Shown here: positions 1,898-21,947 of the stretch, piece by piece | Position numbering within the stretch: position 1 is the stretch's first letter | How the letters are laid out: each line of letters opens with the position of its first letter | Virus record (IMG/VR): IMGVR_UViG_3300040806_001064 | Location: 1 to 27,605 of that record | DNA from: a virus | Direction: 5' to 3' (one strand) | DNA length: 27,605 nucleotides | The notes under the pieces: model-generated | Database searches by the model: none | What the model saw: only the letters and a program-made list of their open reading frames with translations | What the model was told of the DNA's origin: nothing | Made by a program: the position numbers and the translations under genes

Positions 1898-3439
1898 CTA
1901 AGACTCCTCTAGTTCTTTAAGTTTATCCTCTTCTGCATCAGTAAAAACACCATCATCATGTGTAACTTCTTCTGTAGTTGTAGATTCATCTACTTCAAAA
2001 AGATTATCAAAATACGTTTGTGCATTAACAGTCTTTTTACCAATTGCTCCTCTAGTTCCTGGTATAGACATCCAGAATCTTGAAAACTCTTCAACTACCG
2101 CGTTTGCTGTGTCTCTGTTGTCAGTTGCAAATATTGCTTCCACAATATCTCTAAAAAACAACCTGTCAAAGCGTTCTTCGACAAGCATCGCAGGAACTCT
2201 TCCCGCATCATATTCTCTGTTTGCTTCTTGTACTGCATTAATGTGACTCCATACATTATGACCCATTTGGATCGCATAAGAAAAACTATCCCATGATGTT
2301 TTTCCTTCTTTACCTATTTTATTTAGGTCGCCTGGTGCATAGATACAAATATCTTTTGCTTGAAGATTTGCTGTAATTGGCGAATCTTTAAAACTACTAT
2401 GCTTACCTTCTCTTACAAATGCTTGACTAAACGGAGTTGTATCAGTTGCAAATGCCTTATTATCAATACTAGGCACCATTCTGTACACCCACTTTTTTCT
2501 ATCCTGTGTTTCAAGTTCACAATAAATTTGACCATTAGCAGTTGCTAAGAACGGACTAGCACAGTCAAATGTAATCATAAAGTTTTCATTATGATACTTT
2601 CGAACTGCTCTTTGAATGTCAGTTAGTAGTGTCGCCCATTCTAGTTTTGATGTACCCAAGAAGTGCATTACATCATGTAAACCTTTTTCAAGTAATCCAT
2701 CAAATCGTAATGCTACTAGACGTTTAAGTACTAGATGCACATCACACATATTCTGACCACCCATTGACCACCCATTAAAGTGATCTGTATATTTCTTAGG
2801 ATCGCAGTAGTCTTTCATCTGCTGGTACCAATCTTCTGCGTCAGCGTGATTTTCACCTTGTAGTACGTTTAGGAACTTACAAGCACCTGTACGATTCTTC
2901 ATAAAGTAATCGTTATTAATGCGTGTAGCATTTACAGCATCTTGATAGTTGTCAATACCTGTTGCTTTTGCACCAGCAGGTGAACGTGCCACCCAAGCCG
3001 GAATATCAAGGATCATTCCATAGTCCATATAAGCATCCATCCACGCAAGAACTTGTTCACGTTTCTTTTTTGCTTTAGGACAATTAGGATCTTTCCAATC
3101 ACCTTCCCATACGCCCTTACCAATCTGGAATCCACCCGAGTCACCTAACAACCAACTGTTGTTACGATCTCTGTTACGGATCATATCTTCTTTAGGTGCG
3201 TCCTTGTTAATATCAAGTTCTGCGTGTCCTGCGGAATATAGACTCCATTGATAATTGAATAGTCCTTTTTGTTTGTTAAACCAATTAAGACTTTCCATTT
3301 CGTTGTTTGGAAAAGGAATACGACTTTTGTCTACGTATTCTTCACGACGTTGCTTACCGATAAACGTAGCATAGAAGCCACTAATTGCCGGAAGAAAGGT
3401 TGCGTAGTCTTTTTGTTCTTTTGTTAAGTCGGTATTCAA
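1898..3439 (-). CDS. dpdA: tRNA-guanine transglycosylase-like protein, DpdA type (DNA 7-deazaguanine insertion)
   Basis: 513 residues. Signature elements of the TGT fold appear in the right order: GDSGGFQIG around Asp100 (TGT has DSGGFQ with the first catalytic Asp), LNVLQGE at 190-196 (TGT: GIVQGG), WSMGGQN at 224-230 (TGT: AIGGL), HFLGTSKLEW at 259-268 (TGT: YLMGVGTP), and MITFDCASPF with Asp292 at the place of the nucleophilic Asp. The C-terminal zinc cluster of bacterial TGT (CxCxxC) is not visible, as expected for the divergent DpdA group. Phage DpdA proteins exchange guanine in DNA for 7-deazaguanine bases and so protect against restriction. The start is TTG at 3439, preceded by AGGAG. 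The last 30 residues are acidic and low in complexity. Whether the substrate is DNA rather than tRNA is inferred from the phage context and length. Confidence 0.8.
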   Translation of the reverse strand: MNTDLTKEQKDYATFLPAISGFYATFIGKQRREEYVDKSRIPFPNNEMESLNWFNKQKGLFNYQWSLYSAGHAELDINKDAPKEDMIRNRDRNNSWLLGDSGGFQIGKGVWEGDWKDPNCPKAKKKREQVLAWMDAYMDYGMILDIPAWVARSPAGAKATGIDNYQDAVNATRINNDYFMKNRTGACKFLNVLQGENHADAEDWYQQMKDYCDPKKYTDHFNGWSMGGQNMCDVHLVLKRLVALRFDGLLEKGLHDVMHFLGTSKLEWATLLTDIQRAVRKYHNENFMITFDCASPFLATANGQIYCELETQDRKKWVYRMVPSIDNKAFATDTTPFSQAFVREGKHSSFKDSPITANLQAKDICIYAPGDLNKIGKEGKTSWDSFSYAIQMGHNVWSHINAVQEANREYDAGRVPAMLVEERFDRLFFRDIVEAIFATDNRDTANAVVEEFSRFWMSIPGTRGAIGKKTVNAQTYFDNLFEVDESTTTEEVTHDDGVFTDAEEDKLKELEES

Positions 3440-10644: not shown

Positions 10645-11067
10645 CTATTCTCCTTTGTAAGCGTCTAGTGTTTTTTGAAATTTACCTGCGTGTGATTTCT
10701 CTGCTTTTGCAAGTGTTTCAAACCAGTCAGCAATTTCTTCAAAGCCTTCGTCTCTGGCTGTTCTTGCCATACCTGGGTACATATCTGTGTACTCATGGAT
10801 TTCACCTTTGATAGCAGATAAAAGGTTTTGCTCTGTATTACCCATAGGTTCGCCAGTTGCTGGATCACCTACTTCTTCTAAGTATTCTAAGTGACCGTGT
10901 GCGTGACCTGTTTCACCTTCTGCTGTGCTTCTAAATACCTGTGCTACTTCATTAGCACCTTCGATATCTGCTTTTTGAGCAAAGTATAAGTATCTTCTAT
11001 TTGCTTCTGATTCGCCTTGAAAAGCGGCTCTTAAGTTGTCTTTTGTTTTGCTGTCTTTTAAGTTCAT
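10645..11067 (-). CDS. Rubrerythrin-like (erythrin) di-iron protein
   Basis: 140 residues of a four-helix ferritin-like domain. Di-iron ligands are in place: Glu19 ([11 protein letters not shown]), Glu52 and His55 ([11 protein letters not shown]), a Glu in [11 protein letters not shown] (about 89-97), and Glu123 with His126 ([10 protein letters not shown]). The rubredoxin CxxC domain of full rubrerythrins is absent, so it is of the short 'erythrin' type. Bacterial homologues reduce hydrogen peroxide using iron. In a phage it might protect against oxidative stress or handle iron during infection. It has its own near-consensus promoter and AAAAGG SD, and leads a short operon with the DsbA-like gene. 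Confidence 0.9.
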
Positions 11068-18347: not shown

Positions 18348-20600
18348 CTATGCAGTTACAGTTTGTTTTTCAACAACAACATCAAGGTTAATTTTACCTT
18401 CTTTAGCATCAATATTTAAGTGACCGCCGTTCTTAAGATCGCCGAATAATAAGATTTTACTTAAATCTTTCTTAATTTCTTTATCAATAACACGCTGTAA
18501 AGGTCTTGCACCCATCTTACGATCAAACCCTTTATCTACTAGATAATCAATAGCATCATCAGTAACAGTAACAGTTACATTTTGTTCAGTAAGCATTTCT
18601 TTAAGTTCAACTAAAAACTTACCTACAATTTTAATCATTGTATTCTTTTCAAGATTACCAAATTTTACAACACCATCTAATCTGTTACGGAATTCTGGAG
18701 CAAAAAACTTTTTAAGTTCTGTATCTTCATACTCACGTTCGTCTTCTTCGCCAAATCCGATAGTATTCTTTTCTGCTTCAATAGCACCTAAGTTTGTTGT
18801 TAAGATCAGTACACAATTTTTACCGTCTGCTTCTTTACCATTTGAACCTGTAATTTTACCATTGTCCATAAGTTGTAGTAAGATTTGTGAAACATCTGGA
18901 TGTGCCTTTTCAATCTCATCAAGTAATAGTACACAGTTAGGATGTTCTTGTAATTTTGTAATCAATAAGCCTGCATTGTCCTCAAATCCTACATATCCTG
19001 GAGGTGAACCAATTAACTTTGCCACCGAATGTTTTTCTTGATACTCTGACATATCAAAACGTACAAGTTTAACACTGAGTTGATCTGCAAGTTGTTTTGC
19101 TGTTTCTGTTTTACCAACACCTGTTGGACCCATGAATACAAATGAACCGATTGGTTTTGTATCAGGTTTTAATCCTGCTTGAGCAACAAGAATCTTATCT
19201 ACAATATCATCGATTGCAGAGTCTTGGCCAAATACAACTTTCTTAAGATTGCCTTCAAGAGTTGCTAGGTTACTTGTTTCTTTTTGTTGTACTTGCTCTG
19301 GCGGTAGATTTACAACTTTAGCAAGTTCAAACTGGATTTCTTCTTTACCAACAATCTTATCGCCTTCAACTTTCTTTAAGTTAAATCTTGAACACGCTAA
19401 GTCAATCAAGTCAATTGCTTTATCTGGCAACTTCTTATCTGCTTGATACTTGACACTTAACTTAATTGCAGTATCAATTGCTTCTTCTGTAATAGTTGTT
19501 TTATGGAATTCTTCGTAGTATTTTTTGATACCTTCTAAAATACTTTTAGTTACACTTGCAGTAGGCTCGCCTACTGTAACTCTTTGGAATCGACGCATTA
19601 ACGCACGATCCTTTTCAAAGTACTTTCGATACTCTTCCCAAGTAGTTGAAGCAACAACTTTAATATCACCTTTACCTAATGCTGGCTTTAGCATATTAGC
19701 AAGATCATTTGAATTGCCCTGGCCGCCGGCACCAGCACCGTTAATCATGTGTGCTTCGTCGATAAACATAATAGTCTTGCCTTGCTTTTTAATACCAGCC
19801 ATAACAAGTTTAAAACGTTCTTCAAAATCTCCGCGATACTTACTACCTGCAAGCATAGCACCAATATCAAGGTTATAAACTTTATATTCTTGTAAAAACT
19901 CCGGCACTGCTTTGTTTACAATATTCCAAGCAAGTCCTTCTGCAATAGCAGTTTTACCAACACCTGGATCACCTACTAGTAACACATTGTTCTTTGAACG
20001 ACGTCCTAGTGCAAGTGCAATAGTTTCTAATTCATCAGTTCTTCCAATTACAGGGTCAACATTATTCTTGGCAACTTCTGAATTAAGGTCAGTTGTAAAC
20101 TCACGTAATGCTTTTTGACCAAGTGTACGCATTTCTTCATCTTCGTATGCGTTATCTACTTCGCTATTAAGATACTCTGCAAATTCTTCTTTTTTAATTC
20201 CTGCTTTTTGAATGTAGTAGTATGCAAAACTTTTCTTTTCATTAAGAATACTTAGGAATACATCTGTAACTTCAATATGGTGACGTCCATTAAACAGAAC
20301 TTGTGTAAACGCTCTATTTAGAACACGTTCTACTGTTGCAGTCTTTTTAGGTTTAAACTTTTTATTTTCTGCTTCAACAGGTAAAGTAATATCTTCTAAT
20401 TCATTCTTTAAATAATTTTCAATATTCTTTTTAATAAATTCAGGATCAGCACCTACACCTGCAATTAAGTTACAGAAATTATCTGAACAGAGCATTGCAA
20501 AAAGAACGTGTTCAAGAGTTACATACTCGTGATTAAGTTTCTTAGCATCGCTAACTGATTTATCAAATACCGATTGTAGTTCGTCGCTTGGTTCAACCAT
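18348..20600 (-). CDS. clpA: ClpA-like AAA+ unfoldase
   Basis: 750 residues, nearly the length of E. coli ClpA (758). An N-terminal Clp repeat domain (about 1-145) is followed by AAA module 1 (Walker A GDPGVGKT 210-217, Walker B IMFIDE 277-282, RRF arginine region near 336-338) and AAA module 2 (GPTGVGKT 491-498, LLLDEIE 558-564, FRNRLD 637-642). There is no ClpB-type middle coiled coil. NTIGFGEED at 612-620 carries the I-G-F tripeptide at the position of the ClpP-docking loop (IGL in E. coli ClpA). No ClpP or ClpS gene is present in this window, so it may pair with host ClpP. Overlaps the PDF stop by 8 bp; belongs to the dnaJ-def-clpA transcript. Confidence 0.92.
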   Translation of the reverse strand: MVEPSDELQSVFDKSVSDAKKLNHEYVTLEHVLFAMLCSDNFCNLIAGVGADPEFIKKNIENYLKNELEDITLPVEAENKKFKPKKTATVERVLNRAFTQVLFNGRHHIEVTDVFLSILNEKKSFAYYYIQKAGIKKEEFAEYLNSEVDNAYEDEEMRTLGQKALREFTTDLNSEVAKNNVDPVIGRTDELETIALALGRRSKNNVLLVGDPGVGKTAIAEGLAWNIVNKAVPEFLQEYKVYNLDIGAMLAGSKYRGDFEERFKLVMAGIKKQGKTIMFIDEAHMINGAGAGGQGNSNDLANMLKPALGKGDIKVVASTTWEEYRKYFEKDRALMRRFQRVTVGEPTASVTKSILEGIKKYYEEFHKTTITEEAIDTAIKLSVKYQADKKLPDKAIDLIDLACSRFNLKKVEGDKIVGKEEIQFELAKVVNLPPEQVQQKETSNLATLEGNLKKVVFGQDSAIDDIVDKILVAQAGLKPDTKPIGSFVFMGPTGVGKTETAKQLADQLSVKLVRFDMSEYQEKHSVAKLIGSPPGYVGFEDNAGLLITKLQEHPNCVLLLDEIEKAHPDVSQILLQLMDNGKITGSNGKEADGKNCVLILTTNLGAIEAEKNTIGFGEEDEREYEDTELKKFFAPEFRNRLDGVVKFGNLEKNTMIKIVGKFLVELKEMLTEQNVTVTVTDDAIDYLVDKGFDRKMGARPLQRVIDKEIKKDLSKILLFGDLKNGGHLNIDAKEGKINLDVVVEKQTVTA

Positions 20601-21114
20601 GTGTTAAAAATTCCTTATATTTTTTTAATAATTTTTGTTGTTTTTTCTTAGCCATATCTAGTTTAAGTTTACTTACACGGTCAATATAGTTAATACCGTA
20701 TAAGTGGTCAAACTCATGTTGAAAGATTCTAGCATTCCAGCCTGTAAACTCTATTGTACATTCTTTTGCGTTACTGTCAATGAACTTTGCTACCAAAGCC
20801 TGGGCTCGTGTTACTTTAAAAAACAAACCCGGAAAACTTAAACAGCCTTCTTCACCTGTAACTTTTTCTTCAGACACTGCTTCTATTGTAGGATTAATAA
20901 TAGCAAACGGCTTATCATATCCTTCAAGACCTTCTGGCTCCATTACAAAAATTTTAGCATCTAACCCAACTTGATTAGCACTTAGACCAACACCTTTGTG
21001 CTTGTCCATAATTTCAATCATCTGCTTTTCAATGTCTTTTGCATCAAGTTTATCAAAGTCAAATGGTTTAACTTCTTTGTCTAACCATTCATTTGGATGA
21101 TATACTAATTTCAT
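20593..21114 (-). CDS. def: Peptide deformylase
   Basis: 173 residues with all three PDF motifs: GVGLSANQVG (41-50), EGCLSFPG with the metal ligand Cys91, and QHEFDHL with His133, Glu134 and His137. It removes the formyl group from new proteins. Some marine phages carry PDF, often shortened; this one is near full length, with a basic C-terminal helix (KLKLDMAKKKQQKLLKKYKE) which in bacterial PDFs helps ribosome binding. ATGA coupling with dnaJ. Confidence 0.93.
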   Translation of the reverse strand: MKLVYHPNEWLDKEVKPFDFDKLDAKDIEKQMIEIMDKHKGVGLSANQVGLDAKIFVMEPEGLEGYDKPFAIINPTIEAVSEEKVTGEEGCLSFPGLFFKVTRAQALVAKFIDSNAKECTIEFTGWNARIFQHEFDHLYGINYIDRVSKLKLDMAKKKQQKLLKKYKEFLTHG

Positions 21115-21947
21115 TTAATTTTCCTAATTAATTCAAGTTGGTCTTCAGTAAGATTTTTTGTAATCTCTCCGTTAATTTTTAAGTAAATGTTGCCTGATAA
21201 TCCAGTATTGTAATCAGGTAGTCCGTGTCCTCGAATACTCATTACAGTTCCTGGCTGTGTGCCTCTTGGTATGTTTATACTTATAGTTTTTCCGTTAGGT
21301 ATATCTAAATTTGTGGCTGTTCCTAACATTAAATCGAACACATTGATTTTAATGTCAGTATGCAAGTTAAAGCCGTCTACATTGAAGTTTGGATGTCTAA
21401 GTATTCTAATTTTAACATTTAAATTACCTTTTGGTAAATTTGGAATACTATCATCTCCTAGTCCTTGATAACGTATAGTATCTCCGTGCCTTGCACCTTT
21501 TGGAATATCTATATTAACTGTTTGTTCTCGACCGGATCTTGTTTTAAAAGAGGCTATCACACCTTTACCGTTATATACATCTTCAAGTGAAATATCACAA
21601 GCAATAGTAACATCAGCATTTTGTTGTCGCTGTCTACGTTGTTGAAACCCTCCACCAAAAAATGTAGAAAACAAATCATTTACATCACCATCAAACTGGA
21701 ACCCGCCAGGTCCTCCAAAACCTTGTTGTTGGAATCCTGCTTGTTGTGGATCAGCAGTTCCAAATTGGTCGTACATTTGTTTCTTTTGTGGATCTTTTAG
21801 TGTTTCGTAGGCTTCTTTTATTTCAACAAATTTTTTCTGATCACCACCTTTGTCGGGATGATGCTGTGCCGCAAGTTTACGGAAAGCAGTTTTAATATCT
21901 TTTTCGGAAGCGTTTTTAGAAACGCCTAATAAGTCATAATAATCCAT
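21111..21947 (-). CDS. dnaJ: DnaJ/CbpA-type Hsp40 co-chaperone
   Basis: 278 residues. J domain with HPD (His30-Pro31-Asp32, in AAQHHPDKGGDQ), then a Gly/Phe/Gln-rich linker (GTADPQQAGFQQQGFGGPGG, LFSTFFGGGFQQRR), then two C-terminal beta domains (GARHGDTIRYQGLGDD, GTQPGTVMSIRGHGLPD). No CxxCxGxG zinc finger, so type II, CbpA-like. It stimulates DnaK; no DnaK gene is in this window, so the host DnaK is a likely partner. First gene of a three-gene cassette whose promoter places the start of the RNA at or next to this ATG; no SD is visible. Confidence 0.92.
   Translation of the reverse strand: MDYYDLLGVSKNASEKDIKTAFRKLAAQHHPDKGGDQKKFVEIKEAYETLKDPQKKQMYDQFGTADPQQAGFQQQGFGGPGGFQFDGDVNDLFSTFFGGGFQQRRQRQQNADVTIACDISLEDVYNGKGVIASFKTRSGREQTVNIDIPKGARHGDTIRYQGLGDDSIPNLPKGNLNVKIRILRHPNFNVDGFNLHTDIKINVFDLMLGTATNLDIPNGKTISINIPRGTQPGTVMSIRGHGLPDYNTGLSGNIYLKINGEITKNLTEDQLELIRKIK

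Follow-up and report, generated by a model that had tools for sequence, protein, structure and literature searches.

A ClpA-type unfoldase from a fragment of a Rak2-like jumbo phage genome, probable motor of a phage-encoded ClpAPS protease

The clpA locus and the phage it comes from

The stretch of DNA analysed here (the window; 27,605 bases, which make up the entire IMG/VR record IMGVR_UViG_3300040806_001064, a fragment) carries a clpA gene that overlaps a peptide deformylase (PDF) gene, which in turn overlaps a dnaJ-like gene (Table 1), and extends 7.0 kb upstream of clpA. The encoded protein matches the phage ClpA family phrog_4871 over its full length (806 bits, residues 6–745 on positions 10–760 of 764) and contains the elements by which ClpA is recognised, namely a Clp_N domain, two AAA+ modules equipped with pore loops and both Walker motifs, and an IGL/IGF loop in D2. 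TIGR02639 covers its residues 6–731 unbroken, with the ClpB models being split in two, which indicates that the protein lacks a ClpB- or ClpC-type middle domain. Because both NCBIfam equivalog cut-offs, which are the naming thresholds for bacterial ClpA, are missed (TIGR02639, 871 vs. 993 bits; NF008263, 712 vs. 1350 bits), the protein is referred to as ClpA-type and not as the bacterial equivalog, although ClpA is still its top model in both profile lists.

Table 1. Coordinates of the clpA gene, its encoded domains and docking tip, and the adjoining genes in the window
Feature	Position	Strand	Description
clpA	18348..20600	-	750 aa; two AAA+ modules and Clp_N domain, without middle domain
N-domain, divergent	20166..20600	-	residues 1–145; PF02861, E 3.3e-10
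D1 AAA+ module	19281..20105	-	residues 166–440; Walker A GDPGVGKT, Walker B FIDEAH, pore loop KYRG
D2 AAA+ module	18396..19280	-	residues 441–735; Walker A GPTGVGKTE, Walker B LLLDEIEKA, pore loop GYVG, FRNRLD
IGF tripeptide, tip of ClpP-docking loop	18753..18761	-	residues 614–616; codons ATC GGA TTT
PDF gene	20593..21114	-	PF01327, E 8e-45; 8-base overlap with clpA
dnaJ-like gene	21111..21947	-	PF00226 and PF01556; 4-base overlap with the PDF gene

Identity to E. coli ClpA, which is 42.1% overall, amounts to 21.6% in the N-domain vs. 48.2% in D1 and 49.7% in D2, in agreement with the initial annotation, where the N-domain had been called divergent and a change in substrate or adaptor choice had been envisaged; with a phage ClpS present in relatives, co-divergence with an adaptor of the phage's own is as good a reason for this as a new substrate choice. 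The N-domain has pLDDT values of mostly ~85–93 within an AlphaFold2 monomer model that is weak as a whole (pLDDT 72.7, pTM 0.39; loop 604–625 below 50), and a Foldseek search with this weak model matched ClpA and ClpC chains at RMSD values above 10 Å.

The best matches of the family B DNA polymerase of the window are found in Rak2-like jumbo phages, with identities of 49.4% to Phosso (469 kb) and 45.6% to Atu_ph07 (490 kb) and further matches in Rak2-like phages of ~350 kb. At the level of gene order, the 92.6–120.0 kb region of metagenomic record G002 (156.6 kb) is colinear with the window (36 ORFs matched, median identity 79.4%), and the order of many window genes is shared by record G027 (357.6 kb; 25 of 42 ORFs matched). 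Judged by these core genes and gene orders, that is the polymerase, a DnaJ-PDF-ClpA series arranged as in Phosso and the order common with G027, the window is a piece of a Rak2-like jumbo phage genome; it is likely to represent less than one tenth of that genome, so that the absence of a gene from it means little.

Among 46 related records, a subset of the best 80 ClpA relatives that was mostly picked for length, PDF is present in 29 and lies at most 120 bases from clpA in 28 of these; in PA5oct and Atu_ph07, DnaJ adjoins ClpA without a PDF in between. The gene order suggests a proteostasis module, in which newly made chains would be deformylated, Hsp70 recruited and proteins unfolded for degradation.

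Two other genes of the window may be mentioned. One (1898–3439, minus strand) encodes a 513-residue protein, 91% identical to its counterpart in G002 and without a match in Pfam, PHROG or the PDB, whose DSGGFQ motif is reminiscent of DpdA DNA-modifying enzymes and of tRNA-guanine transglycosylases. The other (10645–11067, minus strand) is a rubrerythrin-like gene, an unusual cargo for a phage, with a homolog in G010 (135944–136378) that is located far from clpA.

Conservation of the docking tip

In a phmmer alignment, the IGF tripeptide of the window protein falls on IGL 617–619 of E. coli ClpA (1ksf). Excerpts of two published studies describe how flexible loops of E. coli ClpA, made by residues 610–628, dock in clefts of the ClpP ring (PMC9663308, PMC7707817), the docking motif being IGL in ClpA and IGF in ClpX (PMC7707817). 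As translated, the tip of the window protein has the ClpX-like form.

At least 600 IMG/VR stretches encode relatives of this ClpA, of which the best 80 were taken for alignment. The tip reads [I/V/L]GF in every one of these best 80 of at least 600 (76 IGF, 3 VGF and 1 LGF), and within the same set the mean conservation of the tripeptide is 0.984, vs. 0.698 for the preceding 8 residues and 0.572 for the following 10. Its codons vary synonymously among the best 80, both at G615 (GGA 34, GGC 29, GGT 10, GGG 7) and at F616 (TTT 59, TTC 21). The Walker A/B pairs, pore loops and arginine fingers are also retained in these relatives, with mostly conservative changes, and a single one has FVEEAH as its D1 Walker B motif.

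The combination of a conserved tip, synonymous codon variation and variable flanks indicates that the tip is kept at the protein level, and selection probably retains it for docking to a peptidase of the ClpP type; the window protein itself is likely to dock onto such a peptidase. These data are in line with two statements of the initial annotation, which had placed the tripeptide at the site of the ClpP-binding loop and had proposed that the loop is under selection for peptidase docking.

ClpP and ClpS in isolate phages and metagenomic relatives

Neither ClpP nor ClpS was found in the 27,605 bases of the window, and the earlier remark that it encodes no ClpP therefore stands for a fragment of this size. 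A profile made from 21 ClpP sequences and used without a positive control also matched nothing in 37 records, consisting of the window and 36 clpP-negative relatives.

A different picture is offered by isolate phages. Seventeen ClpA-bearing isolates, with genomes of 287–490 kb (that of Vibrio phage 2.275.O being partial), were chosen with the aim of having one per distinct kind from the 60 that were listed of 164 matching records, some of which are ClpB or fragments. ClpP (PF00574) is above the cut-off in all 17, the best ClpP of each retaining the Ser-His-Asp triad, and ClpS (PF02617) is matched in all 17 and above the cut-off in 16. Five large phages without a ClpA above the cut-off (T4, phiKZ, P-SSM2, HTVC008M and phage G) served as controls; ClpS is present in none of them and ClpP in one, phage G, beside weak Clp-ATPase matches. 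In this Bacillus phage (record W22, 187823–189573), ClpP is directly followed by the weak matches, which lie in a 449-residue frame, an arrangement that is likely to be a phage ClpP-ClpX pair.

Among the 46 related metagenomic records, ClpP is found in 10 and ClpS in 8, and all 8 ClpS proteins retain N34, D35, M40 and H66 (E. coli numbering), residues that we take to have a role in N-degron binding. All 10 clpP genes share the strand of clpA and lie 28.8–65.4 kb upstream of it. When the records are grouped by their extent upstream of clpA, clpP is found in 8/8 records reaching at least 50 kb, 9/13 reaching at least 40 kb and 1/27 reaching less than 30 kb. The encoded ClpP is canonical in 8 of the 10 (50–64% identity to E. 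coli ClpP), and the other two, G007 and G009, have mutually identical divergent ClpP-like proteins (22% identity to E. coli ClpP) and no other ClpP; among the 8 records reaching at least 50 kb, 6 have a canonical and 2 a divergent protein.

Four records that reach 42.7–44.5 kb upstream are without clpP, including G002 (83% ClpA identity), which has none in its 156.6 kb. As proof of a clpP-free lineage G002 is ruled out, since it ends 43.5 kb upstream of clpA, at the clpP region, and a homolog of a gene near its terminus (155579–156151) is found in G014 ~2.2 kb before clpP. The clpP of G010, however, sits in a block that is absent from the corresponding place of G002, so that the latter is uninformative on the matter and not supportive.

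A marker gene near the end of G002 (154007–155332) was used to find 80 loci, 33 of which have at least 5 kb upstream; a ClpP lies within that stretch in 25 (17 above 300 bits; 8 at 158–213 bits, taken as divergent) and none in 8. Over their whole lengths, the records of these 8 loci contain a single divergent ClpP (G048), and the 7 that are without ClpP, including G049 (93 kb), count against universality of clpP. Another record, G047, which belongs to the lineage of the closest relatives, has a marker gene 91% identical to that of G002 and comes from metagenome 3300026085, as does the best match of the window ClpA (L001); it encodes a canonical ClpP (272.9 bits, triad retained, 116 identities to E. 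coli over 194 aligned residues) as well as a divergent one. Furthermore, a tree of 28 ClpA sequences groups the window with L027 and L021 (support 95/96), and the records of both have a canonical ClpP.

Tip, cleft and the probable partner of the unfoldase

The [IVL]GF tip is found in Phosso, PA5oct and Atu_ph07 and in all 80 metagenomic ClpA sequences (the best 80 of at least 600), and the hydrophobic cleft of the canonical ClpPs of this group is mostly retained. Twelve isolates, 11 from enterobacterial hosts plus XbC2 (Xanthomonas), have an altered tip (LGM, MGM, VGM, MNM, IGG, IGV or IGM) within a loop that is 1–2 residues shorter, and their ClpPs differ at positions 82 and 114, presumably docking-cleft positions, with L114 replaced by G and F82 by N, C, S or Y. 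Vibrio phage 2.275.O (tip IGV) and XaC1 (tip VGF) have M in place of F82 and T in place of L114; XaC1 therefore combines an aromatic third tip residue with an altered cleft, whereas in RaK2 a ClpA with an IGV tip goes with a ClpP that has Y at position 82. Because the tip state changes twice on the ClpA tree and the pattern comes mainly from one clade, the covariation of tip and cleft is suggestive only. The pattern fits docking of each ClpA on the ClpP of its own phage, with XaC1 and RaK2 as cases that are not neat. A tentative extension, which we would not put forward as the expected outcome, is that the Rak2-like phages with ClpA have a ClpAPS of their own insulated from that of the host, tip and cleft having changed together, the pairs of some clades being orthogonal and ClpS providing a substrate choice of its own. 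Should the covariation reflect selection, these would be natural pairs for studying how docking specificity evolves in AAA+ proteases.

As a whole, the comparisons argue with good confidence that the window protein serves as motor in a ClpAPS protease encoded by the phage itself. The ClpA hexamer would take its substrates directly or via phage ClpS, pull them through two pore-loop rings and hand them to a ClpP tetradecamer docked via the IGF loops, with the clpP and clpS genes expected tens of kb upstream, beyond the 27.6-kb fragment. We infer that the window phage carries both genes and that their products would pair with its ClpA, in a role that may consist in turning over proteins or in controlling their quality while a long infection proceeds. 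This reading has against it that the window shows neither gene, that the four records with 42.7–44.5 kb upstream and the 7 marker-gene records are without clpP, and that the ClpP-like gene of G007 and G009 is a divergent one.

The initial annotation had instead favoured, as the simple model, capture of the host ClpP, in which a phage with ClpA only would dock its IGF loops on the bacterial peptidase and redirect it to new substrates, and had named a clpP gene elsewhere in the phage genome as the observation that would speak against it. Such a gene is present in all isolates examined and in the related records that extend far enough upstream, the genome of the window itself being visible only as its 27.6-kb fragment. 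Although a canonical tip could fit a bacterial ClpP cleft, and clpP is absent from both the window and the 156.6 kb of G002, the presence of ClpP in 17/17 isolates and in 8/8 related records reaching at least 50 kb upstream led to this model being rejected as unlikely, and it leaves unexplained the 12 isolates, 11 of them with enterobacterial hosts, in which a tip that is neither IGF nor IGL accompanies an altered phage ClpP cleft. Partial recourse to the host is easier to accommodate: the ClpA tip and ClpP cleft of the window's group are close to the bacterial form, and it is conceivable, if somewhat doubtful, that phage ClpA has two peptidase partners, phage ClpP and, in cases of a canonical cleft, host ClpP as well, giving mixed complexes. 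Such dual docking is compatible with a phage-encoded ClpAPS, and the confidences attached to the two are not meant to sum to one.

A peptidase-independent function, in which ClpA would remodel virion proteins as an assembly chaperone and the phage ClpP would be a head maturation protease and not its partner, appears improbable. It can draw on the virion structural genes that flank clpA in enterobacterial-type relatives, on some records that call ClpP a 'head maturation protease' and on a translocase or assembly role of ClpA proposed in the excerpted text of Iyer et al. (PMC7824862), but a docking tip preserved in 80/80 relatives (the best 80 of at least 600) would be useless without a peptidase, the canonical phage ClpPs are 50–64% identical to E. 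coli ClpP and keep most of the cleft, and the second, divergent ClpP-like gene of Phosso and G047 could be the maturation protease instead.

Compared with known systems, the window protein resembles the E. coli ClpA of ClpAPS (1ksf, 6uqo and the 7uiv series) in domain order, ATPase modules, pore loops and loop position, and differs from it in having IGF instead of IGL and in being encoded in a phage operon with DnaJ and PDF. The same architecture is found in the ClpAs of Phosso, Atu_ph07, PA5oct, RaK2, GAP32 and CBB, all Rak2-like jumbo phages, although these ClpAs are 37–42% identical to that of the window; those of the phages that are among the listed polymerase matches have a related DNA polymerase B. 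For Atu_ph07, Attai et al. 2018 (PMC6102473) list DnaJ together with ClpX, ClpA, ClpB, ClpS and a proteolytic subunit, and they describe high conservation of ClpA across most of the Rak2-like phages; six Clp ORFs are also mentioned for a Sinorhizobium jumbo phage in an excerpt of PMC11242549. Phage ClpA, ClpP and ClpS are thus already published, and none of the listed papers and excerpts that describe them was found to say that ClpA comes with all of them in the Rak2-like group; the regular presence of ClpP and ClpS with ClpA and the apparent covariation of loop and pocket are modest additions.

The idea of a phage that steers a Clp protease is common to this work and to Iyer et al. 2021 (PMC7824862), part of whose text reports ClpP in some jumbo phages and states that several others 'instead' have ClpS, which would probably serve the host ClpAP, with AMM43882.1 as the cited example. 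This protein is the ClpS of phage CBB, which also encodes ClpP (AMM43669.1) and ClpA (AMM43800.1); because both are carried beside the cited ClpS, the contrast between ClpS and ClpP, as worded in that part of the paper, is corrected. The host-capture story for the window gives way to a testable one, in which the phage would have a regulated protease of its own.

Two features of the ClpP sequences themselves deserve mention. Five phage ClpPs (L084–L088, the clpP products of G036, G014, G010, G033 and G031) have in common a 10-residue insertion that directly follows the catalytic histidine and would fall in the handle region, where they read MIHR instead of MIHQP and PA5oct has MIHRASG. In addition, L089, L090, L153, L293 and L294 form a second, divergent ClpP-like family (~91–94 bits to PF00574), which occurs in the ClpA-bearing phage group either alone or alongside a canonical ClpP and may act as a ClpP substitute or as a maturation protease.
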